DNA from: a virus
IMG/VR virus record: IMGVR_UViG_3300044638_002082
Coordinates: 1-22,115 of that record
Direction: 5' to 3' (one strand)
DNA: 22,115 nucleotides
Shown: one piece after another, positions 1 to 21,567 of the stretch
Position numbering within the stretch: the first letter of the stretch is position 1
Layout: every line of letters starts with the position of its first letter
Notes under the pieces: model-generated
The model's database searches: none
Told to the model about the DNA's origin: nothing
What the model saw: the letters and a program-made list of their open reading frames with translations, nothing else
Position numbers and translations under genes: made by a program

Positions 1-741
1 TGGATTTGGAAGCGGTGGTTTGAAAAGTCGCATCGCATGGAGACGATTGACGGACACATGATACCGATAAGCACGCATGAGGACATAACGCATATTCATA
101 CAACGTATTTGGATAATTACCATAACATAAGTAAGGATTATATTGCAAAGATTGAGGCGATAAAAAGCAAGTCACCTGAGGCATACGCTCACAGGTTTCT
201 TGGTAAATGGCTGGATAAGAAACAGGGCGTTGTATTTCCAAACTGGGTGGAAGGCAAATTTGATGAATCTTTGCCTTTTGCTTACGGGCTTGACTTCGGG
301 TTTTACCCCGATCCTTTGGCATTGGTCAAAGTCGCGGTTGATACCACGGCAAACAAGATATACGTAAAGGAAATCATTTACGAACAAAGTCTTTCTTATG
401 ACATGGTTTTGACAAAGATTAGGAATAGCATTGAACTTGATGCCATGGTTGTTGCTGATACAAGCGAACCACGTTTGATTGACGCGCTTACCTCAAATGG
501 TATTAATGTGCATAAGACGGAAAAGTACGCTGGCAGCGTGGTTGATGGGATTAAGAAAATGGCTGATTTTACGATTGTGGTTACTGAGGAATCGTATAAT
601 TTAAAGTATGAATTAAGGAATTACATTTGGAACGATAAAAAAAGTTCAACGCCAATGGACGCGGATAACCACGGGATTGACGCGCTTCGCTACGGTTGCA
701 TGAGGCTATTGGAAGGTTCAGACGTATTGGCATTTAATTAA
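1..741 (+). CDS. Phage terminase large subunit, C-terminal part (5' truncated by window edge)
   Basis: The frame is open from base 1, so this is the last 246 residues of a longer protein; the ATG at 37 is internal, not a start. The product is the packaging motor subunit, and the part seen is the RNase H-like nuclease domain that cuts concatemeric DNA. Three acidic motifs fit the metal-binding site: YGLDFGFYPDP (Asp98 of this fragment), VVADTSEPRLID (Asp153) and DNHGIDALRYG (Asp227). The final GIDALRYG followed by a short tail is typical of the Terminase_3C / PBSX-type ending. The ATPase domain must lie to the left of the window. The next gene starts 6 nt downstream. Unusually, portal and capsid genes do not follow; they lie more than 10 kb away. 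Confidence 0.93.
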   Translation, partial: WIWKRWFEKSHRMETIDGHMIPISTHEDITHIHTTYLDNYHNISKDYIAKIEAIKSKSPEAYAHRFLGKWLDKKQGVVFPNWVEGKFDESLPFAYGLDFGFYPDPLALVKVAVDTTANKIYVKEIIYEQSLSYDMVLTKIRNSIELDAMVVADTSEPRLIDALTSNGINVHKTEKYAGSVVDGIKKMADFTIVVTEESYNLKYELRNYIWNDKKSSTPMDADNHGIDALRYGCMRLLEGSDVLAFN

Positions 742-1214: not shown

Positions 1215-1510
1215 CAAACAACGAAAAGGCGCATTACATCATTGACTTGATTAAGGTGATAACACTTGAAATAGAGGAACACCCGATGCGAAGGAAACAA
1301 TTACTTCTCCTTCGCTCCCACTTGGAAAAGGCTGTGCGGTTGACAGGTACGGGCAGGTACAGGGAATTAAAACGCCCTGAATCTTTGCCCCTTGTTAGCC
1401 ATTCAAAAGTATTAACCCCAGAGGTTAATGAAAATGCAAAAGGCATTGAACCGAGCGCAATAATTGCAGATAATATTCCCGAACCAACAAAGAAAAACAG
1501 GCGCAAATAA
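1211..1510 (+). CDS. Small two-helix phage protein with a disordered tail (function unknown)
   Basis: This is a 99-residue protein. Residues 1-45 look like a helical hairpin, starting MTNNEKAHYII and continuing through RRKQLLLLRSHLEKA. The rest is low in hydrophobics, rich in Pro, Ser, Asn and Lys, and probably disordered, ending KKNRRK. The N-terminus shares only the xxxEKA pattern with the two upstream genes. The hairpin, with a basic turn, Leu-rich second helix and LExA, faintly resembles the small hairpin fold of Acb2-type anti-CBASS proteins. I treat that only as a hypothesis. It overlaps the previous gene as ATGA and the next as TAATG (1508-1512), so it sits inside one translationally coupled run. 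Confidence 0.7.
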   Translation: MTNNEKAHYIIDLIKVITLEIEEHPMRRKQLLLLRSHLEKAVRLTGTGRYRELKRPESLPLVSHSKVLTPEVNENAKGIEPSAIIADNIPEPTKKNRRK

Positions 1511-2403
1511 TGGTACAATTTCATTTAAGCCACTCTGATACAAAGTATTTTTATCCTGAAACGGCAGCGGATATAACATTGGAACAATACGTTTATTTCC
1601 ATAAGTTTATTTTGCCTCAATACCCAGAAGTTGAACTTGATGCCCTTGTTGCGCAAAAGCAAATGAAGGCGGCGTATGATAAAATCAAGCCGTATGCAAA
1701 GAAGCTTGGCGTTGACTTGCTTAAATTGTGGGCGGACGTGGTGAAGGAATGTGAAATAATCCTTTTGACAAAAGATGTCAAAGATAATGTACGTCGTTTC
1801 CTTCCTGCATTGATTGACGAGTTTAATAAAAGTCAAAGTAAACTTGTTGAGTGCTTTGGTATCATGGACGAAGTCTGGGAGGCAAATGTAAAATACCCGT
1901 ACATGGCAAAGGTGGTAAATTATTTTACGGGCATTCCTTTAGATGCTTGTTATGGCAAAGTTGCCGAAAGCTTGGAATTGAAATACCTTACCTTCATGTT
2001 TACAAAGATCCTCAATGCGATAAGCGTACCCGAGGAATTGAAATACAAACAGATATACGACTTCAACGGCACCTTGTATTATTTACCTGATAAGTTAATG
2101 GCAAAATCCACGTTGCTTGAATTCGCGGAGGCAGCGCAATTTGACAAAGGAAGGAAAGCAATTGAAAACAACGACGCGCAAGGCTTGCTTCATGTTATCG
2201 CCGTGTTGCTCAGGAAAAAGGATGAGGCATATAGCGACGATGTTTTTCAAAGGAATTGCATTGACTTTTTAAAATTGCCCTTACAAGTTGGCTTTGAAAT
2301 TGGTTTTTTTTTGATGAAGTTAAGCGAGAGTTATCAAGTAGATTTGCAGACCTCTATGCTCAAAAAGGCGATGCAAAGTATGCCAACGCTTCACGACAAC
2401 TGA
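1510..2403 (+). CDS. Tail assembly chaperone, short (zero-frame) product
   Basis: This is a 297-residue, largely helical soluble protein. I assign it as the gpG-like chaperone from three observations. It lies upstream of tail genes and the tape measure. It carries a helical stretch near residues 230-270 (HVIAVLLRKKDEAY, then FLKLPLQVGFEIGFFLM) resembling tail chaperones of Bacteroidetes phages. It ends with a slippery T run followed by an open -1 frame, as in gpG/gpGT systems. After the T run the zero frame continues only about 30 residues to the stop at 2401. In lambda-type phages such proteins hold the tape measure during tube assembly. Start: ATG at 1510, overlapping the previous TAA. An unrelated early structural protein is possible but less likely. 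Confidence 0.7.
   Translation: MVQFHLSHSDTKYFYPETAADITLEQYVYFHKFILPQYPEVELDALVAQKQMKAAYDKIKPYAKKLGVDLLKLWADVVKECEIILLTKDVKDNVRRFLPALIDEFNKSQSKLVECFGIMDEVWEANVKYPYMAKVVNYFTGIPLDACYGKVAESLELKYLTFMFTKILNAISVPEELKYKQIYDFNGTLYYLPDKLMAKSTLLEFAEAAQFDKGRKAIENNDAQGLLHVIAVLLRKKDEAYSDDVFQRNCIDFLKLPLQVGFEIGFFLMKLSESYQVDLQTSMLKKAMQSMPTLHDN
2304..2313 (+). promoter_or_regulatory. Probable programmed -1 ribosomal frameshift site (T9 G)
   Basis: Nine consecutive T occupy 2304-2312, followed by G. In the zero frame this reads GGT TTT TTT TTG ATG, so both T TTT TTT and T TTT TTG are slippery heptamers on which two tRNAs can slip back one base. The -1 frame has a TGA at 2295-2297, just before the run, and then stays open to 2585. 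No obvious downstream stem-loop or upstream Shine-Dalgarno-like stimulator was found by eye. An alternative explanation is a one-base homopolymer error in the assembly. Confidence 0.75.
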
Positions 2404-2585
2404 ATGATAAGTATGGTTGGTACTTGACAATTAAGAAAATAGCTGAGTGCGGATTGTTCAACTTGGCAGGGCTCACACCCTTACAATCAAGCGAAAGGGC
2501 AAATTTGTACGAGGTATTTCAATACCTTGCGAGCAAAGCGGCTGAGGATAACTTATATAATGAGATACAAAAGCAAAAGAAATGA
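2310..2585 (+). CDS. Tail assembly chaperone, -1 frameshifted C-terminal extension (gpGT-like)
   Basis: Read in the -1 frame from the T run, this segment encodes about 91 residues ending EIQKQKK. It has no ATG start of its own, so it would be translated only as a fusion of 358 residues beginning at 1510. The sequence looks truly coding: it contains LNDKYGWYLTIKKIAECGLF and then SERANLYEVFQYLAS, a pattern I know from the C-termini of Bacteroidetes phage tail chaperones. Its TGA (2583-2585) overlaps the next ATG as ATGA, like other junctions here, whereas the zero-frame stop at 2401 would leave an unexplained 178-nt gap. In the gpG/gpGT model the extension recruits tube subunits. Confidence 0.78.
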   Translation, partial: FDEVKRELSSRFADLYAQKGDAKYANASRQLNDKYGWYLTIKKIAECGLFNLAGLTPLQSSERANLYEVFQYLASKAAEDNLYNEIQKQKK

Positions 2586-3037
2586 CATTATTAGAAATAG
2601 CAGACTTATTCAAAAGTACCACGGACGCAACGCAAGGGTTAAACGGCTTTTCATTCGGCTGGGCTTCGGACAGGACGCGGTCACAGGATTACGATTCCGT
2701 GGGCGAAAACAGTACAAACTTATTCCCCAGGGTTTTCTTTGCCGTGCCAACGCTCACAAACAACCCGATAACACGACGCGACGTGTATCAAATTACTTTG
2801 TTCTTTGACGATTTACTTGGATACAACGAGGACGGAACGGTTAACGAGGATACGCAAATAGAAAAGTGGTCAGCATTGACGGTGTTGGCTGAGAAATTCA
2901 TGTTACAAATAAATACCAATAAGCAGGCTGGCAATATCTCCGAAGGCGTTCAAATGACATTGGATAGTTTTTCATCGATACAAATGTTAATAAGTGTACA
3001 GGCGACGTTCAACTTAAACGTTATTTCATCATGTTAA
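2582..3037 (+). CDS. Tail or neck protein, tail-terminator-like candidate
   Basis: This is a 151-residue soluble protein with no recognised motif. The middle part is beta-rich with alternating hydrophobics (LFPRVFFAVPT, then YQITLFFDDLLGY), followed by a helix and a final strand-rich part (VQATFNLNV). This size and pattern would suit the small alpha/beta proteins that cap the tail or join it to the head. The position right after the chaperone and before a gp10-like candidate supports that, but it is inference. The start is fixed by the ATGA overlap with the frameshifted chaperone frame. It overlaps the next gene by 7 nt (ATGTTAA). A different minor tail role cannot be excluded. Confidence 0.55.
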   Translation: MTLLEIADLFKSTTDATQGLNGFSFGWASDRTRSQDYDSVGENSTNLFPRVFFAVPTLTNNPITRRDVYQITLFFDDLLGYNEDGTVNEDTQIEKWSALTVLAEKFMLQINTNKQAGNISEGVQMTLDSFSSIQMLISVQATFNLNVISSC

Positions 3038-3558
3038 TTGAGTTGCAAATTTTAGCGGATGACATTGCGCAAATGGCAATTGAAGCCGTGGCAAATGAAT
3101 GGAAGGCGCAAGGGCACAACTTGACAGGGGCAGCCATTAAGAACATGGAGACGGTTATACGCTTCCAAACAAATGAATTAATCATTGAAGGCTATGTTCC
3201 AGAGTATATGGCAATCAATAACAAAGGGGTACTTGCAACAAAGATTCCTTATTACCCAGGCAGCGGACGAAAGGAAAGCGAGTACATTAAAGGCTTAATG
3301 AGATATGCAAAACAAAGGTTTGGCGCATCGGATAAGGAATCTAAATCAATTGCCTTCGCTATTGCAAGTAAACATAAAAAGGAAGGGATGCCAACGATTA
3401 AAAGCCAAAAGCATTCAAAGACGGGAAAGCGGACGGGCTTCATCGAAGAAGCGTTGGATAAGAAGCAGGCTGAAATGTCAGACTTAATAAACAGGGCGAT
3501 AACATACAGCATTGAAACCACGGTTGAAACATTTTACAAATCAATTTTAAACAGATGA
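3031..3558 (+). CDS. Minor tail / neck protein, HK97-gp10-like candidate
   Basis: This is a 175-residue basic protein. Residues 1-50 are helical and followed by short strands (LIIEGYVPEYMAI). Then comes a loop with Pro, Gly and Lys residues (KIPYYPGSGRKESEY) and a helical C-terminus from about residue 135 (EEALDKKQAEMSDLINRA). The helix/loop layout, with a C-terminal helix from about EEALDKK, is what I expect for the gp10-like neck or tail-completion family that bridges connector and tail. The assignment is by pattern and context only. It is coupled to the next gene by ATGA at 3555-3558. Confidence 0.5.
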   Translation: MLIELQILADDIAQMAIEAVANEWKAQGHNLTGAAIKNMETVIRFQTNELIIEGYVPEYMAINNKGVLATKIPYYPGSGRKESEYIKGLMRYAKQRFGASDKESKSIAFAIASKHKKEGMPTIKSQKHSKTGKRTGFIEEALDKKQAEMSDLINRAITYSIETTVETFYKSILNR

Positions 3559-4757
3559 GTTACACGATAAACCCCGATACCATTTCAAGTAGCCTTTATC
3601 CCGTGGCGTTTCGTTCCATTGAACCGTCTGGGGTTATTCAGCAGCAAGTCAATGTTTATCTTGATGGAACATTGGAAGGTTCTTTCTTGGCGGCTCAAAC
3701 GGGAACAAGTGGAACTTCGGCGGTGTTTGACACAAATGTCCAATCGTTCTTGATTACTCAGCTTGCACCAAAGACAAACGCCAAAACAAGTTTCTTCGGA
3801 AACCTTTACGGGTTCAGTCTTACAAATAATACCGACGTTATTTCATCATTGTATTGCACGGCGTTTAATCAAACGATTAATTCATCGGGCTTTGTCGTCA
3901 CCTCCACGGCAGCGCAAAGCAGCACCACGGCATACGTTTTGCCTTCATTGTTCGTCGATGGGGAATACGACATGGGTGACTTTTATCAACCCTCGGCAAA
4001 TCCTTTCTTATTTTTAACACAAAGGAATGATTTTATAAAATGTAATTCATCGGGAAATATATTCTTGAGTTACCTCGGGCGTGGTACCAACGCGGCTCAA
4101 TTTGAATTTTATTTTAAGTCAGGATCTTCAGCCGTTACCATTGTTGACAATTTAAATTCCACGGCAAACAATGACTTATATTCTTTGTCCGCTGGCGTAT
4201 CAAATATATTTGGAAGCAGTGCCATTTTTCATGCTGGCAATTTTCCAACTAACCCAGATTTATACGATTATTACGATGTCTCCGTTGGTTCATACGACGG
4301 TGCATTCACGCGCCTAAGCGAAAGGCAACGCATTTACATTTATCCAAATTGCGATGATAACATTGAGCTTCATTGGTTCGGTAAGCATGGAGGCGCGGAA
4401 AGTTACCAATTCACAGGCTTAATGATTGATAAGCAAACGAGCAACGCGGACACGATTAACCTTGCGCAAAGGTGGAACATTGCAGCAAGTCCAAAGGCAA
4501 ACACGTATGACAAAAATGTAATTAAGGTTAATCAAAGGTCAAACAAAAGTAAGACGGTCACTGTGGCGGTAAGTCATGAGGATGCATTGTACATTGCCAC
4601 AATGTTTAATAGTCCTGAGGTTTACATTATTGAAAATGGGAAATACGTTAACGTTACCATTGCCAACGGGGAGATAAACACGGATAACAACAGGGCGACG
4701 GACATTGGTGTTACGTTTGAAATTATTTACCAAAATACGCCAGTGGCTCAGCTATGA
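3555..4757 (+). CDS. Bacteroidetes-type phage tail protein (tail tip/baseplate candidate)
   Basis: This is a 400-residue protein, nearly all beta-strand and Ser/Thr/Asn-rich, with no signal peptide. Residues about 257-290 contain YIYPNCDDNIELHWFGKHGG followed by AESYQFTG. Residues 353-369 read SPEVYIIENGKYVNVTI. I associate both motifs with a tail protein common in Bacteroidetes siphophages and usually found beside the tape measure, but it has no firm biochemical assignment. The position between neck candidates and a larger tail protein suggests a distal tail or tail-tip component. It overlaps both neighbours as ATGA, so its stoichiometry may be tied to theirs. Confidence 0.55.
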   Translation: MSYTINPDTISSSLYPVAFRSIEPSGVIQQQVNVYLDGTLEGSFLAAQTGTSGTSAVFDTNVQSFLITQLAPKTNAKTSFFGNLYGFSLTNNTDVISSLYCTAFNQTINSSGFVVTSTAAQSSTTAYVLPSLFVDGEYDMGDFYQPSANPFLFLTQRNDFIKCNSSGNIFLSYLGRGTNAAQFEFYFKSGSSAVTIVDNLNSTANNDLYSLSAGVSNIFGSSAIFHAGNFPTNPDLYDYYDVSVGSYDGAFTRLSERQRIYIYPNCDDNIELHWFGKHGGAESYQFTGLMIDKQTSNADTINLAQRWNIAASPKANTYDKNVIKVNQRSNKSKTVTVAVSHEDALYIATMFNSPEVYIIENGKYVNVTIANGEINTDNNRATDIGVTFEIIYQNTPVAQL

Positions 4758-7189
4758 TAAAATTATTTATAAATAATCAAGAGGTGGATTTAAACCAAAA
4801 GGATGTCAATGTAACTATTGATTATTCTATTGAGAACATTGAGCTTGGTAACATATCGGGAGCGCACTCGAAAAGGAATGTAACATTACCAGGCACAAAG
4901 ACAAACATTGAAATCTTTGAAAACATTGAAACGCCAAATGTCATTGTAACCAATGCTTACAAGTTATTACCTGCACGGCTGGAGGCAAACGGCGTTCCAA
5001 TTCTCACAGGAAAAGCACGTTTGGATTCAGGCGAATTGAATGCCATGAACCACGGATTCAAAGCGAATAATTACAAGGTTGCATTGATTGGAAATAATGC
5101 GGATTGGTTCGCAGACGTGGGTAACATCTTAGTCAGGTCATTGGGCTGGCAGGATATAACAGTATCAACCGCGACGGTTAAAACGAATTACAATCCTTTG
5201 ACTTCGGAACATTGTTTCATCTTGATGAAATGGAAAGCGTGGGAAAACGAAACGTACATTGTTGACAATGAGTTGACGCCTGCTATTTTCATTTGGCAAA
5301 TACTGGAAAAGGCATTTCAAAACAAAGGATACCAATTAAACAGCATCTTTAAAACCGATCCTTTCAGCCGTTTGATTATTCCAATGGGGCTTAATCTTGA
5401 TGCTGATTATATAAAAGACTTTGTAAACTTACGGGCTTCAAATCCTTCGCCTTCGTCCTTCGTTTATTCCTCAGGTGATTATGGCACGGTTGATATTACA
5501 TTTACAAATGAAACCACGTCACCCAACTTTGACACTGGGGGCAATTATTCAGGCGGCGTTTATACCGTGCCAATAAATGCGTTGTATGAATTAATCGCTG
5601 AGTTAAACGTTACATTAACGGCTTCTATTGGTGACTTAAACCAATTTGCAGAACTTATTCTTTTCTTTGAAGTCAATGGAAATAACGTTTCAACGTATGA
5701 TTTAACAAATGAAACATCGTTAAATGATTCTATTGCGCTTGAATTCCTGGGTGACTTAGTGGCAGGTGACTTGGTTAAAATGCGGCTAAGGTACGAGAAC
5801 GTCACATTCAACTTAGTTATCGGTGGTTCATTCTCCGTGGTTGCACAAAAGGAGGGATTAGAGCAAGGCGAAACGGTAAACTTGGAATACATCATACCTA
5901 ATTCATGGTATGTCAAAGATATTATTGCGGACTTAACAACCATTTTTAATTTAGCATGGGAGACGGACGTATTAAGCAAACAAGTGTACGCATACCCAAA
6001 GGACAATTATACGGTAAGGTATCGAGCCAATGCAAGCGGAGCGATTACCCTTACAACGTTTGACGGCTTTTTTAAGGACACAAATAAGTACGATTTAAAT
6101 ACCCGAGACATTGATGGAAGCGAATTAACCATTCTCGATAATTACAAATCAAGTCAAGTGCTGGCGTATGCCACGGATGACGATACCACGAACAAAGAGG
6201 AAGCAAGGCGAGGCGTTAACATTTACTCAGGCGGTTACAACTTTCCAGAGGATCGTTTTCCAAATGGGATTGAATTCCTTTATACAAAGTTCTTCGCAAA
6301 AGCTATTCATATAAACGACGTGGCAATAACCACGGGTGGAACATACGGGGCGCAGATGCCTCTTGTTTTCGGTGACGATTATAATACCGTTCCCGATGCA
6401 GAACCCAATTATAACTTGGCACCTCGTTTGCTTTATTACGCAGGAAGGCGCAGCGGCTTAGACGGGTATGTTCGTTTGTATGATGAAGCAAGCTCGGCGG
6501 CTTCGGCTTTTGATTTTCCTGCCGCGTTCATGGTTAATTACAATGACCCGAGTGGCGGAGATTTTAACCTTTCCTTTTCCGACGAGGTCACGAATTATAC
6601 AAATGTGATGCAAGGCGTTTTTAAAACGTTCCACCTTCAAACGTACAAACGCATTGAACTCGGTAAGCAATATACAACATTTGTCAAATGGGAAAACAAA
6701 GACATAACGCAACTGTCATTCAGGCGCAAGGGAATGATTGGAAGTTCCAATTTCATTATTCAGGAACTTGAATACAATCCCAAAAGCAATAGCCCAGCGC
6801 GCACGGTGATTTTATACGATGAAAAGCCAAATGTAAATGACTTAAGCAAAGTAAGCAATACGATTACACTGGCAGGCGCACCGCCGCAAGGTGGCACGGT
6901 GACAGGATCTGGAAGCGGCTTGGTTGGGGCAAATGGAGCAACGGTAAACATTCAGTTATCTTATACGCCGTTCCTTAATTCAAATACCAATGTACTTGTA
7001 TTACCCGTCAACTCAGGCATAACGCAGGTAAGCAACACGAATGCAAATGTACTTGTATTTCAGAACGGGCAAAAGTTGATACCAACCATTCAGTATATTA
7101 TTGGCGGCTCAACCATAGGAATAAACATTGATACTCATTACGATGGGGCAAATTATGAAGTTATTGTAAACGGCGTAACAAAGGGATAA
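4754..7189 (+). CDS. Large tail-associated protein (baseplate hub / tail-tip candidate)
   Basis: This is an 811-residue protein. The N-terminal 60 residues contain an alternating strand region ending in NVTLPGTKTNIEIF (residues 42-55), an opening I know from large tail proteins of Bacteroidetes phages. A long middle part mixes helices and strands, with a segment near WYVKDIIADLTTIFNLAWE that resembles hub-type subdomains. From about residue 715 there is a Gly-rich linker (GGTVTGSGSGLVGANG). The protein ends with a small beta module, VFQNGQKLI to NYEVIVNG (about 768-807), also found twice in the downstream fibre. No enzymatic motif was seen. It probably forms the tail tip to which fibres attach; that role is inferred from size, place and the shared module. 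Confidence 0.55.
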   Translation: MIKLFINNQEVDLNQKDVNVTIDYSIENIELGNISGAHSKRNVTLPGTKTNIEIFENIETPNVIVTNAYKLLPARLEANGVPILTGKARLDSGELNAMNHGFKANNYKVALIGNNADWFADVGNILVRSLGWQDITVSTATVKTNYNPLTSEHCFILMKWKAWENETYIVDNELTPAIFIWQILEKAFQNKGYQLNSIFKTDPFSRLIIPMGLNLDADYIKDFVNLRASNPSPSSFVYSSGDYGTVDITFTNETTSPNFDTGGNYSGGVYTVPINALYELIAELNVTLTASIGDLNQFAELILFFEVNGNNVSTYDLTNETSLNDSIALEFLGDLVAGDLVKMRLRYENVTFNLVIGGSFSVVAQKEGLEQGETVNLEYIIPNSWYVKDIIADLTTIFNLAWETDVLSKQVYAYPKDNYTVRYRANASGAITLTTFDGFFKDTNKYDLNTRDIDGSELTILDNYKSSQVLAYATDDDTTNKEEARRGVNIYSGGYNFPEDRFPNGIEFLYTKFFAKAIHINDVAITTGGTYGAQMPLVFGDDYNTVPDAEPNYNLAPRLLYYAGRRSGLDGYVRLYDEASSAASAFDFPAAFMVNYNDPSGGDFNLSFSDEVTNYTNVMQGVFKTFHLQTYKRIELGKQYTTFVKWENKDITQLSFRRKGMIGSSNFIIQELEYNPKSNSPARTVILYDEKPNVNDLSKVSNTITLAGAPPQGGTVTGSGSGLVGANGATVNIQLSYTPFLNSNTNVLVLPVNSGITQVSNTNANVLVFQNGQKLIPTIQYIIGGSTIGINIDTHYDGANYEVIVNGVTKG
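7043..7186 (+). repeat. Shared beta module at the end of the tail-tip protein, also present twice in fibre 1
   Basis: The protein-level pattern is V-[FY]-x-NGQ-x-L, about 8 residues, Y, a strand, then NY-[ET]-V. It occurs here (VFQNGQKLI to NYEVIVNG) and at 17410-17529 (VYRNGQILL to NYTVIF) and 18178-18312 (VFRNGQLLI to NYTVVTVSG) in fibre 1. The bases are diverged, so this is protein-level homology. It resembles the small phage fibre domain with a NGxxL...Y pattern that decorates tail tips. Confidence 0.65.
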
Positions 7190-10107
7190 TGTCAAAAGTA
7201 ATAGGTTTTCAAATAGTAATAGACGGGCTCGGCAAAACGGTTGAAACGGCAACGGAATTAAAAAGAGCCATTGCCGACGTAAACGCGGAAATCAAGAAAA
7301 CAACCGACGTTCAAGAAATCAAGAAACTTGAAGCGAAGTTGGTTGACTTGAAGGCGGCGCAAATGGAGGTTAACAAAGTTGTTAAGGAGCAAATCAAAAG
7401 CCGCAACGAAGAAATAACCGCAACCGACAAAGCCAACGGCGCGTATCGCAAGTTAAGCAAAGAGTTGAATGACCAACGCAACCGATACAAAGATTTGGCG
7501 GCGGCTGAACAGGAATCAAGTCAGGAGGCAAAAGATTTATTGGTAAGTATCAACAACCTCGATAAAAAGTTAAAAGGCATTGATGCCACGGTTGGACAAT
7601 TTCAAAGGAACGTCGGAGGTTATACCGAGGCATTGGGGCAATTTTTCCCGAAGCTTGGGGGAACATTAGGACAAGTGACGGGTACAATAGGAGGATTATC
7701 TCAGGGAATAAATGGATTAACTCAAACCACGGGAGCATTTAATAAATCGCTCGGCGCTATTGGAATAGCATTAACTCTTTTTAGTGGCATATCTGAAATA
7801 TTTCAAAGTATAAATGAATCGGTTGCTGAAACAAAAGAGTTATCTAATCAGGTTGCAGGATTTACGGGGGCAACAGGAAACGTATTGACTGACTTTGTAA
7901 GCAAGTCAAAAGCAATATCAACCACATATAAAAAAGATGTAAATGAAATAACCGTCGCAGCCAACACGGCAAGCAAAGCATTAGGCATTGGTTTCAATGA
8001 GGCATTGGACGCCATTGAGGCAGGATTTAGAAAGGGCGCAGATAGTAATGGGGAGTTCTTGGACAACCTAAAAGAATATCCAGCGCAATTTGCGGCGGCT
8101 GGATTAAGCATTAAAGATTATTTAGCCATTTCAATCGAGGCGGCAAATCAAGGTATTTACTCAGATAAGGGCTTAGACGTTGTTAAGGAATTTGGATTAA
8201 GAATTAGAGAACAAACAAAAACTTCCAAAGACGCATTGATAGGTGCATTTGGCGAAGAATTTACAGGAGAGTTATTTGAAAATTTAAACAATGGCTCAAT
8301 AACAACCGCCGAGGCTTTGTCCTTAGTAAGCGGAAAAATGGGAGACACTGAGGTTGCAGGCGATAAATTACAGACGGTTATTGCAGATGTTTTTGGCGCG
8401 GCTGGCGAAGATGCTGGTTTGGCTTACATTCTTTCGTTGGAAAAGATTTTAAAAAATACTGACGATGTAACAAAATCAACAAACCAATATCAAACACAAC
8501 AGGAAATTCTTTACCAAACAAACTTAGACTTGGAAGCAAGTCAATCAGAATTAAATGAATCATTCACAAAGTTTGGTGGAGAATTTACAATTATATCCTC
8601 TAAAGCAAAGATATTTTTCAATAACTTATTAGGAGGTTTACTTGATTTTGCAAATGAGTTTCCTGCAACCTTAAAAGCCATGGGCGCAGGATTAACGACC
8701 TTTTTTACTACGGGAAGCATAAGCGGTGCATTGAAAGCGAATCGAGATGTATTTAGAGCCGAAAAACAAAAGATAGATAAGGAAGATAAGTTAGCTATTG
8801 AGAAAGCTGAAAAAGATCGGATTGCACTTGAAAAGCAGAACGCCGAAGAACAAAAGAAAAGATTAAAAGCTCAAAACAAAGAGTTAAGCACCACGGCAAA
8901 TAAAGGAGGCATGGACGCGGCAAAAGAATATGCGGCTGGTTCCCTTGCAGCCCTCGAAGATGAACGAAGCAAATTGCAAACCGCATTTTCCAACGCCGTG
9001 GTTGGCGCAGGGACACAGAAAGAACTGGCGGTAAAGTTGAACGCAATTAATAACCAAATTAAATCAGCGGTTGAACAACAAAACCAAATCTTAGCAGATG
9101 CGGCGCGTGGTAACTTGCTTAACAACTTAAAAAACGCGGAACAACTTGCAACCTTGCCATTGACGACAAAGCCGCCAGAATTATTAAAAAAAGAGGTTGA
9201 AGATATTCAAAAGGTATTTAAAGAGGTTACAAAAAACGCGGACGACTTTAGGGACGAACAAAAGAAAAAAGAGGAACAAGATTTAGAGGAACGGGCAAAG
9301 AGAATTGAAACTTATTTGCAAACCGCTTCTTTAGTCACCGACTTTTTTTCCACGGTACAGCAAGCGCGTTTTAAAAAGGATGCTGACCAATTAAATGAAC
9401 AAATCGAGTTAACGGAAGAAAATATTGCAACGCTTGAAGCCAAAGCAGAAAAAGCAAGTGGCATAAAAAAGAGGAGATTAGAAAAAGAAATTGTTCAGGA
9501 AAAGGCATTGTTGGAATCAAGAAACAAAGAAGCCGAAGCATTGCAATTAAAAGCGGCGAAGGCTGAAAAGAAAATAGCCATTCTTCAATCAATAATACAA
9601 GGGGCTTTGGCGGTAAATAGGGCTTTAGCCGTTCCACCTGGTCCGCCATTTACTATTGGTTCAGCCATTTCTGCAGGTGTTTTCGCAGGAATACAAACGG
9701 CGACGATTATTGCCCAGCCCCTTGCAGAAGGTGGAGTTGTCACGGGGCAGCGGGTGAATCAAAAGCAAAACATACCAACGCGGTCAAATGGTGACAATGT
9801 TCTTGCGTATGTTAAGCGTGGTGAGGTTGTATTGAACCAACGCCAACAAAGTTTATTAGGTGGTTCTCCCACATTCAGGAAACTTGGTATAAAAGGTTTC
9901 GCGGAAGGTGGCATGGTTCCACCGATAAGCCCACCGATACAAGGCTTAGGTTTACAGGGTAACATGAACGAATTTTTGCAAGTCATGGAGGCAAAGACAG
10001 ACGCGATAAACAACAGGATAGACAGGTTGCAGGCATACGTTGTGAGCGAAGACATTGCGCGCGATCTTGCTGAGGGAAATAAATTGAAAATAAACGCCAC
10101 TTTATAA
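7189..10107 (+). CDS. Tail tape measure protein
   Basis: This is a 972-residue protein that sets tail length and is ejected with the DNA. The N-terminal 135 residues are charged coiled coil, followed by QFQRNVGGYTEAL (138-149), a sequence I know from Bacteroidetes tape measures. A hydrophobic stretch lies near 186-205 (LGAIGIALTLFSGISEIF). Long coiled coils occupy about 535-590 and 690-800. A Gly/Ala-rich hydrophobic part precedes the typical ending LAEGGVV, GDNVLAYVKRGEVVLN (868-883) and FAEGGMV. At roughly 0.15 nm per residue this predicts a tail of at most about 145 nm, hence a siphovirus. No peptidase or lysozyme insertion was seen. It starts at a TAATG overlap. Confidence 0.92.
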   Translation: MSKVIGFQIVIDGLGKTVETATELKRAIADVNAEIKKTTDVQEIKKLEAKLVDLKAAQMEVNKVVKEQIKSRNEEITATDKANGAYRKLSKELNDQRNRYKDLAAAEQESSQEAKDLLVSINNLDKKLKGIDATVGQFQRNVGGYTEALGQFFPKLGGTLGQVTGTIGGLSQGINGLTQTTGAFNKSLGAIGIALTLFSGISEIFQSINESVAETKELSNQVAGFTGATGNVLTDFVSKSKAISTTYKKDVNEITVAANTASKALGIGFNEALDAIEAGFRKGADSNGEFLDNLKEYPAQFAAAGLSIKDYLAISIEAANQGIYSDKGLDVVKEFGLRIREQTKTSKDALIGAFGEEFTGELFENLNNGSITTAEALSLVSGKMGDTEVAGDKLQTVIADVFGAAGEDAGLAYILSLEKILKNTDDVTKSTNQYQTQQEILYQTNLDLEASQSELNESFTKFGGEFTIISSKAKIFFNNLLGGLLDFANEFPATLKAMGAGLTTFFTTGSISGALKANRDVFRAEKQKIDKEDKLAIEKAEKDRIALEKQNAEEQKKRLKAQNKELSTTANKGGMDAAKEYAAGSLAALEDERSKLQTAFSNAVVGAGTQKELAVKLNAINNQIKSAVEQQNQILADAARGNLLNNLKNAEQLATLPLTTKPPELLKKEVEDIQKVFKEVTKNADDFRDEQKKKEEQDLEERAKRIETYLQTASLVTDFFSTVQQARFKKDADQLNEQIELTEENIATLEAKAEKASGIKKRRLEKEIVQEKALLESRNKEAEALQLKAAKAEKKIAILQSIIQGALAVNRALAVPPGPPFTIGSAISAGVFAGIQTATIIAQPLAEGGVVTGQRVNQKQNIPTRSNGDNVLAYVKRGEVVLNQRQQSLLGGSPTFRKLGIKGFAEGGMVPPISPPIQGLGLQGNMNEFLQVMEAKTDAINNRIDRLQAYVVSEDIARDLAEGNKLKINATL

Positions 10108-10740: not shown

Positions 10741-12123
10741 ATGACATACGCCGATTATCCAGATGCTGCAAAGAACAACGCACGACGCGCACTTGACCAC
10801 AAAGAAAAGAATGGTTCAGATTGCGGCACGCTTGTTGGCTGGCAACGGGCAAATCAAATTGCCAATGGTGAAGGCTTATCGGAAGAAACGGTTCAACGCA
10901 CCTATTCATTTTTAAGCCGCGCGGAAACGTATGACCAAGGGAAATACTTTGATGAAGATGGTTCGGAGATTTGCGGCTCAGTAATGTACGACGCATGGGG
11001 TGGAAGTGCCATGAGGGATTGGGCTGAGGCAAAGTACAAGGCGATACAAAAGGACAAAGCAAAAAACATGGCAAAAGTAAGTATAGATATTTTAGGGGAA
11101 ATTTCGGAATCGGTTAATTCTTACAACTCGGTAAGAACTAAAATTAACCAGGCGAACGGGCAGCCAATTAATTTGACAATATCATCGGGAGGTGGCAGCG
11201 TCACTGAAGGCATGGGTATTGCTGATTTAGTTGCTAATTACCCGGAAGAAACCACGGCAACAGGAATCGGCTTGGTAGCAAGCATTGCAACGGTTGTACT
11301 GTTGGCGGCTGACAATGTAAAGATGACTGAAAACGCCTTCATGATGATTCATCGCCCTTGGAGTTACACGATGGGTAACGCCGACGAGCTTGAGGCAACG
11401 GCTGAATTATTGGACAAGATGGAGGCAAAGTTACTTGACATTTACACGGCTTCGGTTATTAAACGCAAAGGAGACCAAAAGAACCTAAGAGAAATTATTA
11501 CGAATATGATGGCAGCCGAAACATGGCTGACCGCTCAGGAAGCATTAGAATTTGGCTTCATTGATGAAATTGTGAAAGTTGGCGAAAAAAACATAGATAT
11601 GTTACCGTTGCAAAATAGCCTAAACAAGTTCTTAAATGTACCAGCCGCATTATTAAACAATACAAAAAAAGAAGATGAAATGGGTAGTTCTATTTTAGAA
11701 AAAATCAAAAGCCTTCTTAATAGCATAGACGAAACTCCCACCGTGGAAAATGTTATTGAGGAGGAAAAAGTAATGGAGGAGGAGCCAAAAAACGACGAGG
11801 TGGAAGTTGCTATTTCCATGCTCAAAGAAAAAGGCTACTTTGTATTATCACCCGATGAAATGGAGACAATGCACTCGAAGCAAAAAGAGGAAATGGAATC
11901 AATGTACAAGAAAACCGAAGAACAAAAGAACTCGATTACTGAAATTGAATCGGTTCTTGAAACATTGGGCAATGAATTAGTCGCACTTAGGGCGCAAGTT
12001 AAAAAAGGCGTTGGACTTCCTTCGGGCGGTTCGGCGCACGAAAAGGTTCAGGAAACAAAAGCGAAATCGAGTTACTTTGATTCTTTCGCTTCATTAGTTC
12101 AAACTAAAATCTCACAAAGATAA
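10741..12123 (+). CDS. Prohead protease of ClpP type with extra N-terminal domain and scaffold-like C-terminus
   Basis: This 460-residue protein has three parts. Residues 1-105 form a domain with two conserved-looking motifs, CGTLVGWQRANQIANGE (28-44) and ICGSVMYDAWGG (77-88). I recognise this pattern from other phage head proteins but cannot name its function. Residues 110-285 are a ClpP-like serine protease: SSGGGS (148-153), the nucleophile Ser181 in VASIATVVLLAAD, His204 in MMIHRPW, and Glu260 in AAETWLTAQEA where ClpP has Asp. Residues 305-460 are Glu/Lys-rich with a coiled coil (about 370-420), as in a scaffold. The protease would cut scaffold and head proteins inside the procapsid. A standalone-type start is also conceivable at Met110 (11068). 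Confidence 0.88.
   Translation: MTYADYPDAAKNNARRALDHKEKNGSDCGTLVGWQRANQIANGEGLSEETVQRTYSFLSRAETYDQGKYFDEDGSEICGSVMYDAWGGSAMRDWAEAKYKAIQKDKAKNMAKVSIDILGEISESVNSYNSVRTKINQANGQPINLTISSGGGSVTEGMGIADLVANYPEETTATGIGLVASIATVVLLAADNVKMTENAFMMIHRPWSYTMGNADELEATAELLDKMEAKLLDIYTASVIKRKGDQKNLREIITNMMAAETWLTAQEALEFGFIDEIVKVGEKNIDMLPLQNSLNKFLNVPAALLNNTKKEDEMGSSILEKIKSLLNSIDETPTVENVIEEEKVMEEEPKNDEVEVAISMLKEKGYFVLSPDEMETMHSKQKEEMESMYKKTEEQKNSITEIESVLETLGNELVALRAQVKKGVGLPSGGSAHEKVQETKAKSSYFDSFASLVQTKISQR
11680..12123 (+). CDS. Possible nested scaffold protein, in-frame internal start within the protease gene
   Basis: An ATG at codon 314 begins MGSSILEKIKSLLNSI, which reads like a natural N-terminus, and the upstream bases are a purine run (AAAAAAAGAAGATGAA). 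The product would be 147 residues: an acidic linker, a coiled coil and a C-terminal capsid-binding candidate helix (SSYFDSFASLVQTKI). Lambda C/Nu3 is the model for a scaffold encoded inside the 3' end of a protease gene. The capsid protein has no obvious N-terminal delta scaffold region, so a separate scaffold is expected. Whether this internal start is used is inference. Confidence 0.4.
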   Translation: MGSSILEKIKSLLNSIDETPTVENVIEEEKVMEEEPKNDEVEVAISMLKEKGYFVLSPDEMETMHSKQKEEMESMYKKTEEQKNSITEIESVLETLGNELVALRAQVKKGVGLPSGGSAHEKVQETKAKSSYFDSFASLVQTKISQR

Positions 12124-13592: not shown

Positions 13593-14141
13593 ATGAGCGC
13601 AATAACAGGCGGTTGGCTTAATCAATGTACAGACGGAACGTGCGCTGGTGGTATTGGCAAATTTTATGTTGCCAATGCTAATCAGGTGACAAGCATTACC
13701 AACAACGCATCGGGAGCAACCACGGCAATAACAATGACTTCAACGGCTGCCGTGTTTTACGAGATTGAATTCAGGGATAACTCAGGTGCGTTCACGGAAA
13801 CGGTGACGCAAGACCCAGACACTTTATCAGTAGCCATTGAGCAAAGTTTAACGGGAATCATTAATTGCCGCGATCAGGAATTACGCAACCTTATTCAAGA
13901 CATGGCAAATCAGGCTTGCGGCTTGGTTTGTGTTCACGTGGAAAACACGGGTAACTATTGGATTTGGGGCGTTGAACTTGTTGGCGGTAAGAAAAGGGTT
14001 GCAAGGTTAACAAGCGCCGAAGGTTTATCGGGTGCATTGTTTACCGATTCAAATCAAGAGACGCTTACCATTACTTGTAGAACAACGAACAAAGCAAGGT
14101 ACATCGTAAACGGCGAAACAGTGATGAACGCCTTAGATTAA
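13593..14141 (+). CDS. Probable major tail (tube) protein
   Basis: This is a 182-residue protein. The start, ITGGWLNQCTDGTCAGGIGK, followed by a beta-rich body with FYEIEFRDNSGAFTETVTQD, a helix (RDQELRNLIQDMANQACGLV) and the strand VHVENTGNYWIWGVELVGG, follows the layout I know for tube proteins of Bacteroidetes siphophages: an aromatic glycine strand pair after a helix of Leu, Asn and Arg. Tail-tube proteins form hexamer rings around the tape measure. Its location between capsid and portal, about 6 kb from the tape measure, is unusual and lowers certainty. A second decoration or head-closure protein is the main alternative. Confidence 0.55.
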   Translation: MSAITGGWLNQCTDGTCAGGIGKFYVANANQVTSITNNASGATTAITMTSTAAVFYEIEFRDNSGAFTETVTQDPDTLSVAIEQSLTGIINCRDQELRNLIQDMANQACGLVCVHVENTGNYWIWGVELVGGKKRVARLTSAEGLSGALFTDSNQETLTITCRTTNKARYIVNGETVMNALD

Positions 14142-14147
14142 TAAAGT

Positions 14148-14384
14148 ATGATAGTTAGAGAAAAAAGCAAACAAATGCTTTACGTGGGTGCAGACCTTTC
14201 GGGCAAAGCTGGCATCATTCGAAAAACTATCGGCGAACTTTCGCAAAACGAATTGAGGGCTTGGTATAAATCAAGCCCTCAGGACGTTGGGCAACACGTC
14301 ATTTATACCCCTGAGAAAAAAAGCTATGAGCCAACAATTAAAGAAAATACAGGCAGTCCCGAATCGGAACAATCGAGTAAGTAA
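14148..14384 (+). CDS. Small protein overlapping the portal start (function unknown)
   Basis: This is a 78-residue hydrophilic protein starting MIVREKSKQMLYVGADLSGK. Residues 1-50 look folded (short strands and helix KTIGELSQNELRAWY). From about residue 55 it is Lys/Glu/Ser-rich and probably disordered (KENTGSPESEQSSK). That tail lies over the first 59 nt of the portal gene, in another frame, so these bases would be read twice if both starts are right. The gap to the previous gene is 6 nt, with an A/T-rich leader. No function is recognised; such small proteins before the portal are common in phages. Confidence 0.6.
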   Translation: MIVREKSKQMLYVGADLSGKAGIIRKTIGELSQNELRAWYKSSPQDVGQHVIYTPEKKSYEPTIKENTGSPESEQSSK

Positions 14385-15735
14385 ACAGAATCAAAGCCCT
14401 TTACTTGCTTCGGTTACCTTAGATACCTCCAATACCATGCTTGTAAAGGAGGACATTTTTAACGAGCCGTCACGGGAAAGGCTTGATTTTACAGGGGCAA
14501 AATGGGTGCGGTTCTTTACGCAAAAAGATGACTTTTTAAAGAGCCTTATAGCCATTGTTAACAATTCGCCGACGTTAAGAAGGATAATAGAAGATAAAAC
14601 AAATATGGTCGTTGGTGACGGCTTCATTCCCATGATGGGTAAAGCAAATACATTGCTTACCACGTCAATGAAGGGTGAAGTTATCACCGACGATTCTTTA
14701 AGCGAAATAGAAGATGTTATTTCACAGGTTAATTTACATGGTCAAAATCTTCAGGAGGTTTTGGCTCAACTTGCGTTTGACTATGATGCTTTTGGGAATA
14801 GCTTTTGCGAAATTGTTAAAGGTAAAGTAGGCAGCGAACCATTTACTTATATTTACCATGTTCCAGTGTACAACGTTGGCATTCGAAAAGCCGAAGCCGA
14901 TCAGCTTATAAAATCGGTTGGCATTTACGATAACTGGGAAGAGGTGCCACTTACTACCGACGGCGTATTTTACGAAAGCGAAGGATTCAGGGAAGTACCG
15001 ATTTATCCTGACTTTAAGAAATTTGAAGACGGAACGCAAAGAAGCGTTATTCATGTGAAGCAATACGCGGCAGGCTATTTTTACTTTGGTTTACCTGAGT
15101 GGATTGGCGCGAAAATGTGGGCTGAGATTGAATATCGCATTCAAAGATTTAATACAAGTAAGTTTGAAAATGGTTTCATGCCTTCTGGGGTGATGCAATT
15201 CTTCGGCTCGATTACGCCCGACCAAGCAAAGAAATTGGTTGAAGGAATTGAAAGCAAGTTCACGGGAATGGGGAATAATCATAAGTTATTTGTACAGGTT
15301 CTTAGGGACGAAAAATTAAAAGCAAATTGGATTCCCACCTCAAAGGAAAGCGAGGGCGAATTTTTAAACTTGCAAAACTTGGCAGCCTCGGCGATTGTCG
15401 TGGCTAACAGGTGGAGCAAGTCACTTGCAGGCTTCGCCACGGAGGGGCAACTTGGAAGCAATCAACAGATACGTCAGGAAATGGAATATTTGCAAAGTAC
15501 GGTGATTAAACCGCGCCAAAACTTGATGTTATCTAAAATAATAAATCCTTATTTAGCCGAAATTGGGCTTTATAACCCAGCCTTTAAAGATGTTCAATTC
15601 TCAATATCAAACACTTTACCCGTGTCATTCATGGGTGAAATAAAGGTTGAGGATAATTTGACGCAAGACGAAAAAAGGGAAATATTAGGTTATTCACCAA
15701 TCGAAACAAATGAGCCAATTAATACAACCGTCTGA
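14326..15735 (+). CDS. Phage portal protein
   Basis: This is a 469-residue protein that forms the dodecameric ring through which DNA passes and on which the terminase docks. Evidence: the helical N-terminal part with NSPTLRRIIEDKTNMVVGDG (79-98 of this start), DYDAFGNSFCEIVKG typical of portal stem/wing strands, WSKSLAGFATEGQLGSNQQI and then EMEYLQSTVIKPRQNLML near the C-terminus, all matching the general portal pattern. I chose ATG 14326 (MSQQLKKIQ, preceded by GAGAAAAAAAGCT). The longer frame from 14287 would need a TTG start inside the coding region of the previous gene. It overlaps the next gene by 26 nt. The portal is far from the terminase, which is not the usual order. Confidence 0.85.
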   Translation: MSQQLKKIQAVPNRNNRVSKQNQSPLLASVTLDTSNTMLVKEDIFNEPSRERLDFTGAKWVRFFTQKDDFLKSLIAIVNNSPTLRRIIEDKTNMVVGDGFIPMMGKANTLLTTSMKGEVITDDSLSEIEDVISQVNLHGQNLQEVLAQLAFDYDAFGNSFCEIVKGKVGSEPFTYIYHVPVYNVGIRKAEADQLIKSVGIYDNWEEVPLTTDGVFYESEGFREVPIYPDFKKFEDGTQRSVIHVKQYAAGYFYFGLPEWIGAKMWAEIEYRIQRFNTSKFENGFMPSGVMQFFGSITPDQAKKLVEGIESKFTGMGNNHKLFVQVLRDEKLKANWIPTSKESEGEFLNLQNLAASAIVVANRWSKSLAGFATEGQLGSNQQIRQEMEYLQSTVIKPRQNLMLSKIINPYLAEIGLYNPAFKDVQFSISNTLPVSFMGEIKVEDNLTQDEKREILGYSPIETNEPINTTV

Positions 15736-16249
15736 GGTTATAAGCGGCGGAGTTGCAAGACCAACGCCTGCAGACATAAGACTTGATAAAAGCCTTATAA
15801 GCCCTCACATTCAAGATGCGGAGTTTCAATGGATTGTCCCAGCTATTGGCGTATCTTTTTACGATGCCTTGGTTGCTGACAAAGGAAGTTCAACCGCATT
15901 CACGTCAACGGCTTATCAAGCGTTATGGAATGATCATTTAAAATCCTTTTGTGCTAACGCCGTGTTATACGAAGCAGCTCCGTACATGGTTATGCAACTT
16001 GGTACAAATGGGCTTTATACGCTTGATAACGAGTATGGGCAAAACGTGGGGGTTGACGGCTTGAAATTTTATCAAGACACGATGCTTCAAAGGTTAGGGG
16101 TAAAGAAGAAAAGGATTAAGGATTATTTGTGCACTTGCGCAAGTAATTTAATAGGCTTTATTCCGAGTGCCATTGGTTGCCCTGAGGCAACTTGTAATGA
16201 GGATGAAGAAATATTTGACATTTATAACACGATGGGAATAGTACTATGA
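15710..16249 (+). CDS. Head-tail connector / adaptor-type protein (DUF6712-like)
   Basis: This is a 179-residue helical protein starting MSQLIQPSEVISGG. It has an early segment with HIQDAEFQWIVPAIGVSFYD (33-52) and a helical core (LKSFCANAVLYEAAPYMV), the layout of head completion adaptors that extend the portal. I associate the pattern with a Bacteroidetes phage family annotated DUF6712. The C-terminal 40 residues contain four cysteines (141, 143, 157, 162) in a CxC ... CPEATC arrangement that may bind metal. It begins within the last 26 nt of the portal gene and ends in an ATGA overlap with the first fibre gene. Confidence 0.62.
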   Translation: MSQLIQPSEVISGGVARPTPADIRLDKSLISPHIQDAEFQWIVPAIGVSFYDALVADKGSSTAFTSTAYQALWNDHLKSFCANAVLYEAAPYMVMQLGTNGLYTLDNEYGQNVGVDGLKFYQDTMLQRLGVKKKRIKDYLCTCASNLIGFIPSAIGCPEATCNEDEEIFDIYNTMGIVL

Positions 16250-19200
16250 GTGAAGAAATAAAGCCAAAAAAGGAACGTAAGTTTTTAAAGGCATTAGGAA
16301 AAATCGGAGAGGTTTTGATTCAAGAACTTTTTTTCAAAGTAGGGAGCAATTTGATTCGAAAGATTGGAGGCAAAAAAACTTTGCCTTCAATTCTTTTTAT
16401 ATTCCTTTCCCTCACCCTTTTCGCCCAATTCCCAAACACATTGAACAAACAACGTCTTGGTTTCCAGACCACGGGCGACGGGCTTGTTTGGCGTGGTGCA
16501 TTGTCCGACACGGCTTCCATTCAACCGGTAAACAATCAAAACGCATGGGTTATTCTTGATACGGTAAATTTAAAAATGTACTCATTTGATTTTACCTCCA
16601 ACGTTTGGAACTTGGTAGGCGGTGCATTAGCCATGCCTTTCGATTCTATCACCTTTAACACTGCAAAGAATGGCACAGTAGGCGTGGGTGAAGTTGAATA
16701 CAATGATACACAAGGCTCTCTTATACAAGGATTAAAGGGAGGTAATGTTACCAATGTCATTGGTCAACAATTACACCAAAGAGTGAATAATCGCACTGGA
16801 GCAACACTTAATAAAGGTGATGTCGTTTATTTATCAGGAAGTCAGGGTAATCGAATAACAGTGGCAAAAGGTTTAGCTGTTACGGATGCTTTTTCGGCTA
16901 ATACTTTTGGTGTAGTTGCTGAAAGTATTGCGGACAATCAAAGCGGATTTATTATTACTGAAGGCTTAATAACAGGCTTAAATACTTCAGCCTTAACAGA
17001 AGATAGCGCGGTTTATTTGTCTCCAACGGTTGCAGGTGCATTGACTTCAACAAAGCCTCAAGCACCACAGCATACAGTGTATATTGGCGTGTGCGTAAAG
17101 AGTAATAACGGTTCGGGGGAATTGTTCGTTAAAATAAGAAATGGGCAGGAACTTGACGAGCTTCATGATGTTCGAATAAGTAGCCCAGTAACAGGTGCTA
17201 CTTTGTTTTATTCAGGTGGATTATGGCGCGACACAACGGCAGCCCTTTTGGTTAGTGACACGGCTTCCATGCTTTCCAATTATGCAACAAAAGCATACGC
17301 GGATACAACGGGAAGGTTATACGCAAGACAGGACTATACGACAGGCGTAACGTCTTCAACTTTGACATGGACACAAAGTGACACTTTGATTCCTGGGGGA
17401 GTTAATGTTGTTCAAGTGTATCGTAATGGACAAATATTATTGCCTTCGCAATACACAATACCAACGTCAACAAGCGTGGTAATTGCAGCTTCATCATTTA
17501 AAGTCAATGATAATTACACGGTTATTTTTCCGCGTGGTGGCGGTGCAGGAAGTGGTGGAGGATCGGGCAGTTTAACATCAATTTCTGCAGGTACAGGAAT
17601 AACAGTTAGCCCAAATCCAATAACAACGACTGGAGTAGTTTCGGCTGACCTCAGTGTTTTAATGGAATTGACAGATACATCATTATTGAACCTTACATCA
17701 AGATTCAACACAAAGCAAAATACCTTGGTATCTGGAACAAATATCAAGACGGTAAATTCAAATAGCTTATTAGGCTCAGGAAATATAAGCGTTGGAACAT
17801 TGGTTGCGGCTGATACCGTTTCGTTATCCAACAGAATAAATACAAAGTTAAATTCAACTGACACATCTTCGTTATCTAATCGAATCAATCTTAAATTAAA
17901 CGCTTTAGACACGGCTTCCCTTTCCAATAGGATAGACGCAAAAGGTACGGGTACTGTTACAAGTGTTGCCACGGGCTACGGTTTAACAGGTGGAACAATT
18001 ACAACAACGGGTACTTTGTTACTTGATTCAGCCGTTGTATTTTCGCGAATAAGGGATTCCATTGTTGACGTTGCCATTGGGAATGATACCATAAAGATTT
18101 TAAAACAGGAATACGCACCAGCCACAACAAGCGTTTTAACTTGGACAATTACGTCAAAGTTTCCGATTCAATCAAAGGCATTTATTTTGGTTTTCAGAAA
18201 TGGTCAGCTTCTTATTAATGACCAATATAATTTAACTGATACTAATAAAATTACCATTGTTTCCAATTCCTTTAAATCAGGGGCTAATTACACGGTGGTC
18301 ACGGTTTCTGGCATTGGTTCGGTTGGGACGGGGGTGTTTCCAAACCCCGTTTACCCTGAGGCAGGGATAGCGGTATCAACAGGCAGCGCGTGGGCTTCAA
18401 GCATTGCAAATAATTCAAGCAATTGGAACGTCGCATTCAATGACAAAATAAACAATGCTGAGTTCTCAGGAACAAATACAAAGACGTTGACTTTGACCCA
18501 ATATGACGGGGGAACATTTACGCCAACGTTTACCGACTTGCAAGGGGTGACAGGCGTAACGGCAGGAACAGGTTTAACAGGTGGAACGATAACAACCACG
18601 GGCACGGTGGCGGTTGATTTTACCACGGTTGCACCTTTAGCGAATCCCACGTTTACGGGCACGGTTTCGGGGATAACGAAAAGCATGGTTGGATTAGGCA
18701 ATGTGGATAATACTTCAGATGCAAATAAGCCCGTATCAACGGCAACGCAAACGGCGTTAAATGGTAAAGAAAATACTATTACAGCAGGAACGACAGGACA
18801 ATATTTTAGAGGAGATAAGACATTTCAAACCTTAGATAAAAGTGCGGTTGGCTTAGGAAATGTAGATAATACTTCGGATGCTAATAAGCCCGTATCAACA
18901 GCAACACAAACGGCGTTGAATGGTAAACAAAACACATTAACCAACCCAGTCATGGGCACGGGAACAACAAATACTTTGCCATTATTTACAGGGTCTTCAA
19001 CTTTAGGAAGTTCAGTAATTCAAGAAAGTGGAAGTAACATTGGAATAGGTAAAACTCCTTCGGCAAAATTAGATGTTAATGGAGATTTACATACAAATGG
19101 AACTTCTTATAATTTTAATAATGTAAATAACAGAAATGGATATTTATACTTTGACCATTCTGGAGTGCAAGTTTGGAAATTTGGATTATTTAATGACAAT

Positions 19201-20124: not shown

Positions 20125-21567
20125 ATGAAACAACTCCTTTTCCTCCTCCTTTTCCCTTGCCTTGCCCTTGCACAATATCAAGGCAATGGAAACCAAAAGA
20201 TAACATTGGGCGAACAAACGACTGCCGATGGGTTGATTTGGCGAGGTGTGGCTGCTGATACAACATTGACGGCAAAGAGCGACACAGCGGCTTATTTTGT
20301 GCTTGATACGGCTAATTTAAATTTGTATACCTACAAGGCTTCTGCAACTGGGCGAAAGTGGCGGCAACTTGGAGCGGATACTGCGGCTATTGCCTATGTT
20401 AATACTTATGGAACGCAAACGGTAAACGGGGCAAAGACATTTACAAGCGCACTCACGGCAACAAGGTTTAATCTTAATCCAACGGCAAACACGGCAACGG
20501 GAAATGGTATGTTTTTACCAGCAGCAAATACACTTGGATTTTCAACTAATGGATTAAACAGAGTTACAATAAATTCAAATGGCAGTTTTGGCATTGGAAT
20601 AACTCCTGGAACTTTTGAAGGGTTAACTTTTCCTGACCCATTTTTTGATGTTGCTGGAAATATGCAATTAAAAGGTACAGCAGCAAATGGATTTTCTAAT
20701 TTATCAATGGGAGGATTAACACACAGAAAAGCAGGTATATTTACTTCAATAGATGGTGAATCTCCTTATTTAAGTTTTTACGTTGCATCAAGTTATAATA
20801 ATTCAAATGTATCATTATTAATGTATGCAGATTCTTTGCAACGTTTAGGTATTGGAACTACAAGTCCAAGTTCACGTTTAGTTGTTAAAGGTGTTGATGG
20901 TACAAGTTCTTATTCATCATTAAATGTTACTAACTCATCAAATGCTTCATTACTATTTGTTAGAAATGATGGAAATATTGGCATTGGAACTACGAGTCCA
21001 GCTAATACATTAAGTATTTATGGAACCAATCCTTCAACAGTTTATCAAACAAGTGGAACAGGTACAGGCATTAATAACGGATTTTACGTGGGTCATACAG
21101 CTAATGTAAGTTATTTGTATAATTATAATAATTTTCCAATTGTTTTGGCAACAAACAATTCGACAAGAATGACTATTGCAAGCGGAGGTGCAGTTACTAT
21201 TAATGATTTAGCTGGCACAGCAAGTAGGGCAGTAAATGCAGCGGCTGATGGCACATTAAGTGCTGCATCATCTATTTTAATTAAAGAAAATGTTGAAAAT
21301 ATAAATTATGGTCTATCAGATGTTTTAAAATTAAATCCTGTTATTTTTAATTATATTGATAGAAATAAATGGGGTGAAGGTAAGGATTTGGGTTTTGTGG
21401 CGGAAGATGTTATGAATGTTATTCCAGAAGCAACAGGAGTAATGAATAATTCAGATATATATTTTGATTTACAAAAATTAATCCCAGTTCTAACCAAAGC
21501 CATCCAGGAGCAACAAGCCCTTATAAAAGCCCTTGAACAAAGAATTATTAACCTTGAAAATAAATAA
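20125..21567 (+). CDS. Tail fibre protein 2 with signal peptide and C-terminal S74 intramolecular chaperone domain
   Basis: This is a 480-residue protein. Residues 1-16 are a clean Sec signal peptide (MKQLLFLLLFPCLALA, cleavage before Gln17). Residues 24-83 match the N-terminal domain of fibre 1 (GEQTTADGLIWRG against GFQTTGDGLVWRG). The middle has fibre motifs RLGIGTTSPSSRLVV and NIGIGTTSPANTLSI. From about residue 380 there is a peptidase S74 domain: SSILIKENVENINYG, LNPVIFNYID, KDLGFVAEDVMNVIPEA, then a coiled coil IQEQQALIKALEQRIINLE. S74 domains trimerise fibres and then cut themselves off. Ser382 and Lys387 keep the five-residue spacing of the catalytic dyad, but the usual Asp and Arg between them are replaced. 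Export of such a protein is odd for a virion part. Confidence 0.87.
   Translation: MKQLLFLLLFPCLALAQYQGNGNQKITLGEQTTADGLIWRGVAADTTLTAKSDTAAYFVLDTANLNLYTYKASATGRKWRQLGADTAAIAYVNTYGTQTVNGAKTFTSALTATRFNLNPTANTATGNGMFLPAANTLGFSTNGLNRVTINSNGSFGIGITPGTFEGLTFPDPFFDVAGNMQLKGTAANGFSNLSMGGLTHRKAGIFTSIDGESPYLSFYVASSYNNSNVSLLMYADSLQRLGIGTTSPSSRLVVKGVDGTSSYSSLNVTNSSNASLLFVRNDGNIGIGTTSPANTLSIYGTNPSTVYQTSGTGTGINNGFYVGHTANVSYLYNYNNFPIVLATNNSTRMTIASGGAVTINDLAGTASRAVNAAADGTLSAASSILIKENVENINYGLSDVLKLNPVIFNYIDRNKWGEGKDLGFVAEDVMNVIPEATGVMNNSDIYFDLQKLIPVLTKAIQEQQALIKALEQRIINLENK

Follow-up and report, generated by a model that had tools for sequence, protein, structure and literature searches.

The gene at positions 1510-2585 very probably yields two proteins by way of a -1 frame change at a run of nine T residues (T9), a reading to which we assign, from sequence conservation, a probability of about 0.97. 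The window, i.e., the whole stretch of DNA that was analysed, is the 22,115 bases of IMG/VR record IMGVR_UViG_3300044638_002082, from an uncultured phage with a tail and a head module. All of the features described in this and the next paragraph are on the plus strand. The 0-frame ORF (1510-2403, from ORF reading) encodes the N-terminal, G-like product of 297 amino acids, which AlphaFold2 models as mostly helical (pLDDT 81.5). The T9 run occupies 2304-2312, with a G on its 5' side and a G on its 3' side; the 0-frame codons across it are GGT TTT TTT TTG. Plain reading would give the 297-residue protein. In a share of events, a -1 shift on the heptamer U UUU UUU (2304-2310) would instead give a predicted 358-residue fusion, composed of the first 267 residues and a domain of 91 residues encoded in the -1 frame. 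The predicted masses of the fusion and of the 0-frame product are 41.4 kDa and 34.4 kDa, respectively.

The open -1 frame runs from 2298 to 2585 and contains no ATG; its second, T-like domain, delineated from the open frame and from relatives, carries the motif YGWYLTIKxIAExGLFN, and its AlphaFold2 model is weak (pLDDT 67). The 29 residues of the 0-frame product that lie past T9 are predicted to be disordered (pLDDT < 50 at residues 270-297). The next gene (2582-3037, 151 amino acids, from ORF reading) overlaps the -1 ORF at an ATGA junction, and its syntenic counterpart in Bacteroides phage BS-TP3 is phrog_33245. A sequence-only reading had placed the T9 run, the ATG-less open -1 frame and the ATGA junction correctly, in both coordinates and lengths. 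A separate start for the -1 ORF was ruled out: there is no ATG, and conservation starts right at the T run.

Conservation of the T run and of both reading frames

Relatives were gathered by scanning IMG/VR with both products and then by alignments of growing depth. The peptide patterns used in the scans need no T9, and fused single-frame versions of the gene would also have matched; none appeared among the relatives from these scans. Indeed, a run of exactly nine T, always in the same phase, was present in 78 of the 78 distinct IMG/VR relatives that extend across the site. These sequences represent 19 diverged groups, in which the identity of the 0-frame product to that of the window falls as low as about 25%. 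Both frames are open in the 74 complete relatives, with the 0-frame stop located 27-58 codons past the run and a -1 domain of 92-121 amino acids. The comparison of the run and the two frames among relatives, which had been suggested from the sequence alone, thus came out in favor of the two-frame gene. Two profiles detected no prophage copies in a bacterial genome collection, and single-protein queries of 50,697 phage records yielded no close relatives.

A T9 run alone is not improbable: dinucleotide shuffling of the window gives an expectation of 7.2 such runs on both strands, and one was observed. Its invariance across the relatives, however, is far beyond chance. Elsewhere in the gene and its relatives, TTT accounts for 73% of Phe codons. 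For the third-position T ahead of the first Phe codon, the joint probability is about 10^-11.7 over 19 representatives treated as independent, a figure that is overstated given their shared ancestry. Loss of one T would bring a stop within two codons in 72 of 74 relatives, which coding in the other frames makes partly inevitable. Long A/T runs are rare in the window in general, a single T9 and not one A8 occurring in its 22 kb, as if they were avoided except at the slip site.

The site also occurs in cultured phages. A fold search with the AlphaFold2 model of the 297-residue product returned matches to uncharacterised phage proteins, including one from Nonlabens phage P12024S (BFVD, E = 3e-4); phage 6H was also a fold match. 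Nonlabens phage P12024L was reached only by way of this fold search and synteny. In this phage, the gene that immediately follows the terminase carries a T9 close to its 3' end; a -1 frame domain homologous to that of the window comes next (hhalign probability 95%, E = 3.7e-8), and P12024S has an identical T9 site. The likely T9-frameshift gene of P12024L spans 23946-24640 of JQ823123.1. GenBank splits it into two hypothetical proteins, with a short second ORF and no frameshift, and does the same in P12024S. The genes after TerL (phrog_32199) in these two phages therefore resemble that of the window in the T9, the homologous -1 domain, the position directly after TerL and the fold match of the first ORF. 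They differ in that the first ORF is only 175 amino acids long, the frameshift is unannotated, and the run begins at the second codon position rather than at the third as in the window's family, while being nine bases long in both.

Elizabethkingia phage TCUEAP1 and Bacteroides phage BS-TP3 have one continuous ORF of ~180 amino acids right after TerL, with no T run (2164-2703 and 44401-44937, respectively, in the coordinates of the stretches compared). These genes are colinear with the frameshift gene and have the same gene order, and the hhalign probability is below 10%; possibly, they are a shift-free fused version. Other gene orders were found after TerL in the cultured Bacteroidota phages RAP44, Fpv11, hemulen6-1, Arctus_1, BC422P2, Harreka_1 and BS-TP2.

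Are both frames of the overlap (2313-2403, plus strand) in fact coding? We compared synonymous differences, counted at codons with an unchanged amino acid in pairs of sequences at 55-75% amino acid identity; the pairs are not independent of one another. In the -1 frame, synonymous differences amounted to 22% inside the overlap vs. 41% after it, and in the 0 frame to 18% inside vs. 51% far upstream; inside T9 they were 0%. The contrast between the overlap and its surroundings fades at larger distances. Synonymous change is thus suppressed in both overlapping frames, bearing out the earlier description of the -1 frame as coding-like. Such constraint on both frames is at odds with a sequencing error and with a decayed gene.

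A homopolymer within an ORF could also belong to a phase-variable gene that is switched on and off as replication slippage alters the run length, but the run showed zero length variation among the 78 sequences and selection acts on both frames when the run is T9, so that we consider phase variation very improbable. T9 runs are prone to sequencing error, and the sequence-only reading had named such an error (in sequencing or assembly, the real gene having ten T and a single frame) as its main alternative; that idea is refuted by the 78 distinct sequences, drawn from many metagenomes, and by the cultured phage genomes, all with a run of precisely nine T, as well as by the suppressed synonymous sites, and its likelihood is negligible. 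The unchanged run in all of these relatives therefore indicates a real two-product gene.

Slippage by the polymerase or by the ribosome

The two products could arise at either of two levels, and we slightly favor transcription. RNA polymerase would add one U while copying T9, and the resulting U10 mRNAs would then be translated straight through. Runs of nine A or T cause highly efficient slippage of bacterial RNA polymerase (PMC5009743), programmed transcriptional slippage is known at T runs of more than eight (PMC3711429), and the E. coli polymerase favors T runs (PMC6260861). An A/T homopolymer of roughly nine bases or longer, as expected of a transcriptional slippage site, is present in all 78 relatives and in P12024L and P12024S. 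Moreover, the run has a constant length in differing phases, which points to polymerase slippage, although this phase argument draws on one outside lineage (P12024L). Slippage by the polymerase is only slightly ahead because the constraint of dual coding accounts for some of this pattern as well: the final T's of the run are dictated by the need to encode Leu in one frame and Phe in the other.

Frameshifted tail chaperones are a textbook case of ribosomal recoding, and most tail chaperone genes, like that of lambda, employ -1 ribosomal slipping. Frameshifting of the lambda G/GT type is ribosomal and widespread (PMC5009743). The same two products could accordingly be made by classical -1 slipping on U UUU UUU, for which the perfect X XXY YYZ heptamer is present in the right phase in both the window and P12024L. 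Several groups also have a Shine-Dalgarno (SD)-like GAGG about 10 nt upstream of the run. This motif, however, is absent from several groups, the window included, and no SD-like signal was kept across the 19 groups. Nor did a stimulatory structure emerge: the mean fold z was 0.0 both downstream and upstream of T9 (19 groups, scored without pseudoknots), and Rfam gave no match at the site. Finally, seven T suffice for ribosomal slipping, yet nine are retained in two different phases. On balance, we give the ribosomal route somewhat less than an even chance.

The closest parallels to slippage by the polymerase are Thermus thermophilus dnaX and Shigella mxiE, in which a nine-base homopolymer within the ORF likewise leads to an extension of the product in a different frame (PMC5009743, PMC3711429); they differ from the present case, in which slippage is inferred from sequence only. 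In the open-licence papers searched, we found no report of transcriptional slippage in a phage tail-module gene.

Protein families, gene order and probable role

Twenty diverse members of the 0-frame family had no meaningful match in PHROGs, Pfam or NCBIfam, and the -1 domains had none in PHROGs or Pfam. Profile searches against PDB sequences yielded nothing significant. The same was true of a PDB fold search with the 0-frame model, in which the HK97 chaperone 2ob9 appeared only at rank 44, with a probability of 0.09. Both halves of the protein thus appear to be new families, as far as PHROGs, Pfam, NCBIfam and the PDB reach.

The window begins with the C-terminal part of the terminase large subunit (1-741, plus strand; Terminase_3C, 4e-16), followed by three small ORFs, the gene at 1510-2585, two small ORFs, an ORF of 400 amino acids, one of 811 amino acids and the tape measure gene (7189-10107, plus strand; Pfam PhageMin_Tail, 3.8e-13). 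Diverged loci keep this arrangement: TerL, the frameshift gene, two small ORFs, one of ~400 amino acids, one of ~700-800 amino acids and a long ORF of the tape-measure type, a family for which only two of the four diverged loci extending that far gave a Pfam match. Further along the window, a capsid-like ORF lies between the gene for a Clp-type protease (10741-12123) and the portal gene (14287-15735).

Some other features of the window deserve mention. Between the terminase and the frameshift gene, two tandem small ORFs (748-975 and 972-1214) both start with MTPKEKA and both match phrog_21441 (unknown function), i.e., they are a duplicated gene. An ORF of 182 amino acids (13593-14141), which lies between the capsid-like and portal genes and has no family match, is by eye a candidate for the tail tube; if it were, the tube and chaperone genes would be far apart. 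Three successive fibre-like ORFs (16246-20112, 20125-21567 and 21533-22114) have hydrophobic stretches resembling signal peptides near the N-terminus. Export signals on phage tail proteins would be unusual. The first two of these ORFs have TxxGLxWRG in common, and a Peptidase_S74 chaperone forms the end of the second. The host is likely a member of the Bacteroidota, because the best relatives of the terminase are from flavobacterial phages and the gene starts in the window, read by eye, are without SD sequences.

By analogy, we regard the gene as probably that of a tail chaperone, because of its two-product architecture and its tail-module position, the latter kept in diverged loci. Position and architecture suggest a division of labor like that of lambda gpG/gpGT, in which the tape measure would be coated by the short form and the long form would recruit tail tube subunits through its extra domain. 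The tail chaperone had already been proposed from the sequence alone. The position in the tail module supports that proposal; the profile comparison of the products does not, as neither matched known chaperones in the libraries searched, a weak test given that known chaperones are very diverse. Further, the lambda-type pair lies immediately upstream of the tape measure gene, whereas here the gene is upstream on the same strand with four genes (2582-7189) intervening, in an order that is the same in relatives. The system differs from lambda gpG/gpGT also in the lack of any sequence or fold similarity found, in the greater length of the first product (297 amino acids), in the T9 slip site and in the absence of a detected stimulatory structure.

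The new families, the missing chaperone match and the four genes before the tape measure would suit a different role for the two products in the tail or at the head-tail junction, e.g., as two sizes of a structural protein. This interpretation must contend with the gene's place in the tail module at all loci examined and with its -1 extension at the 3' end, which, upstream of a tape measure, is the hallmark of tail chaperones; we view it as the less probable one, with an appreciable chance nonetheless. Returning to the chaperone, we find its combination with the two-product frame change, leaving aside the level of the slip, reasonably likely.

The most far-reaching interpretation is one that we offer tentatively and, taken as a whole, with some doubt: that a large unrecognised family of probable Bacteroidota phages uses polymerase slippage on an invariant T9, rather than ribosomal frameshifting, to fix the proportions in which the two parts of a tail chaperone are made, with families that are unrelated in sequence to known chaperones. 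The real and conserved two-frame gene is in itself a variant on known recoded genes, one whose second domain is missed or mis-split in present annotation. In this diverse phage group with its new protein families, the nine-base T run is the sole conserved signal found. If the slip is transcriptional, then a widespread two-product strategy of tail assembly would have been reached by a different molecular route.
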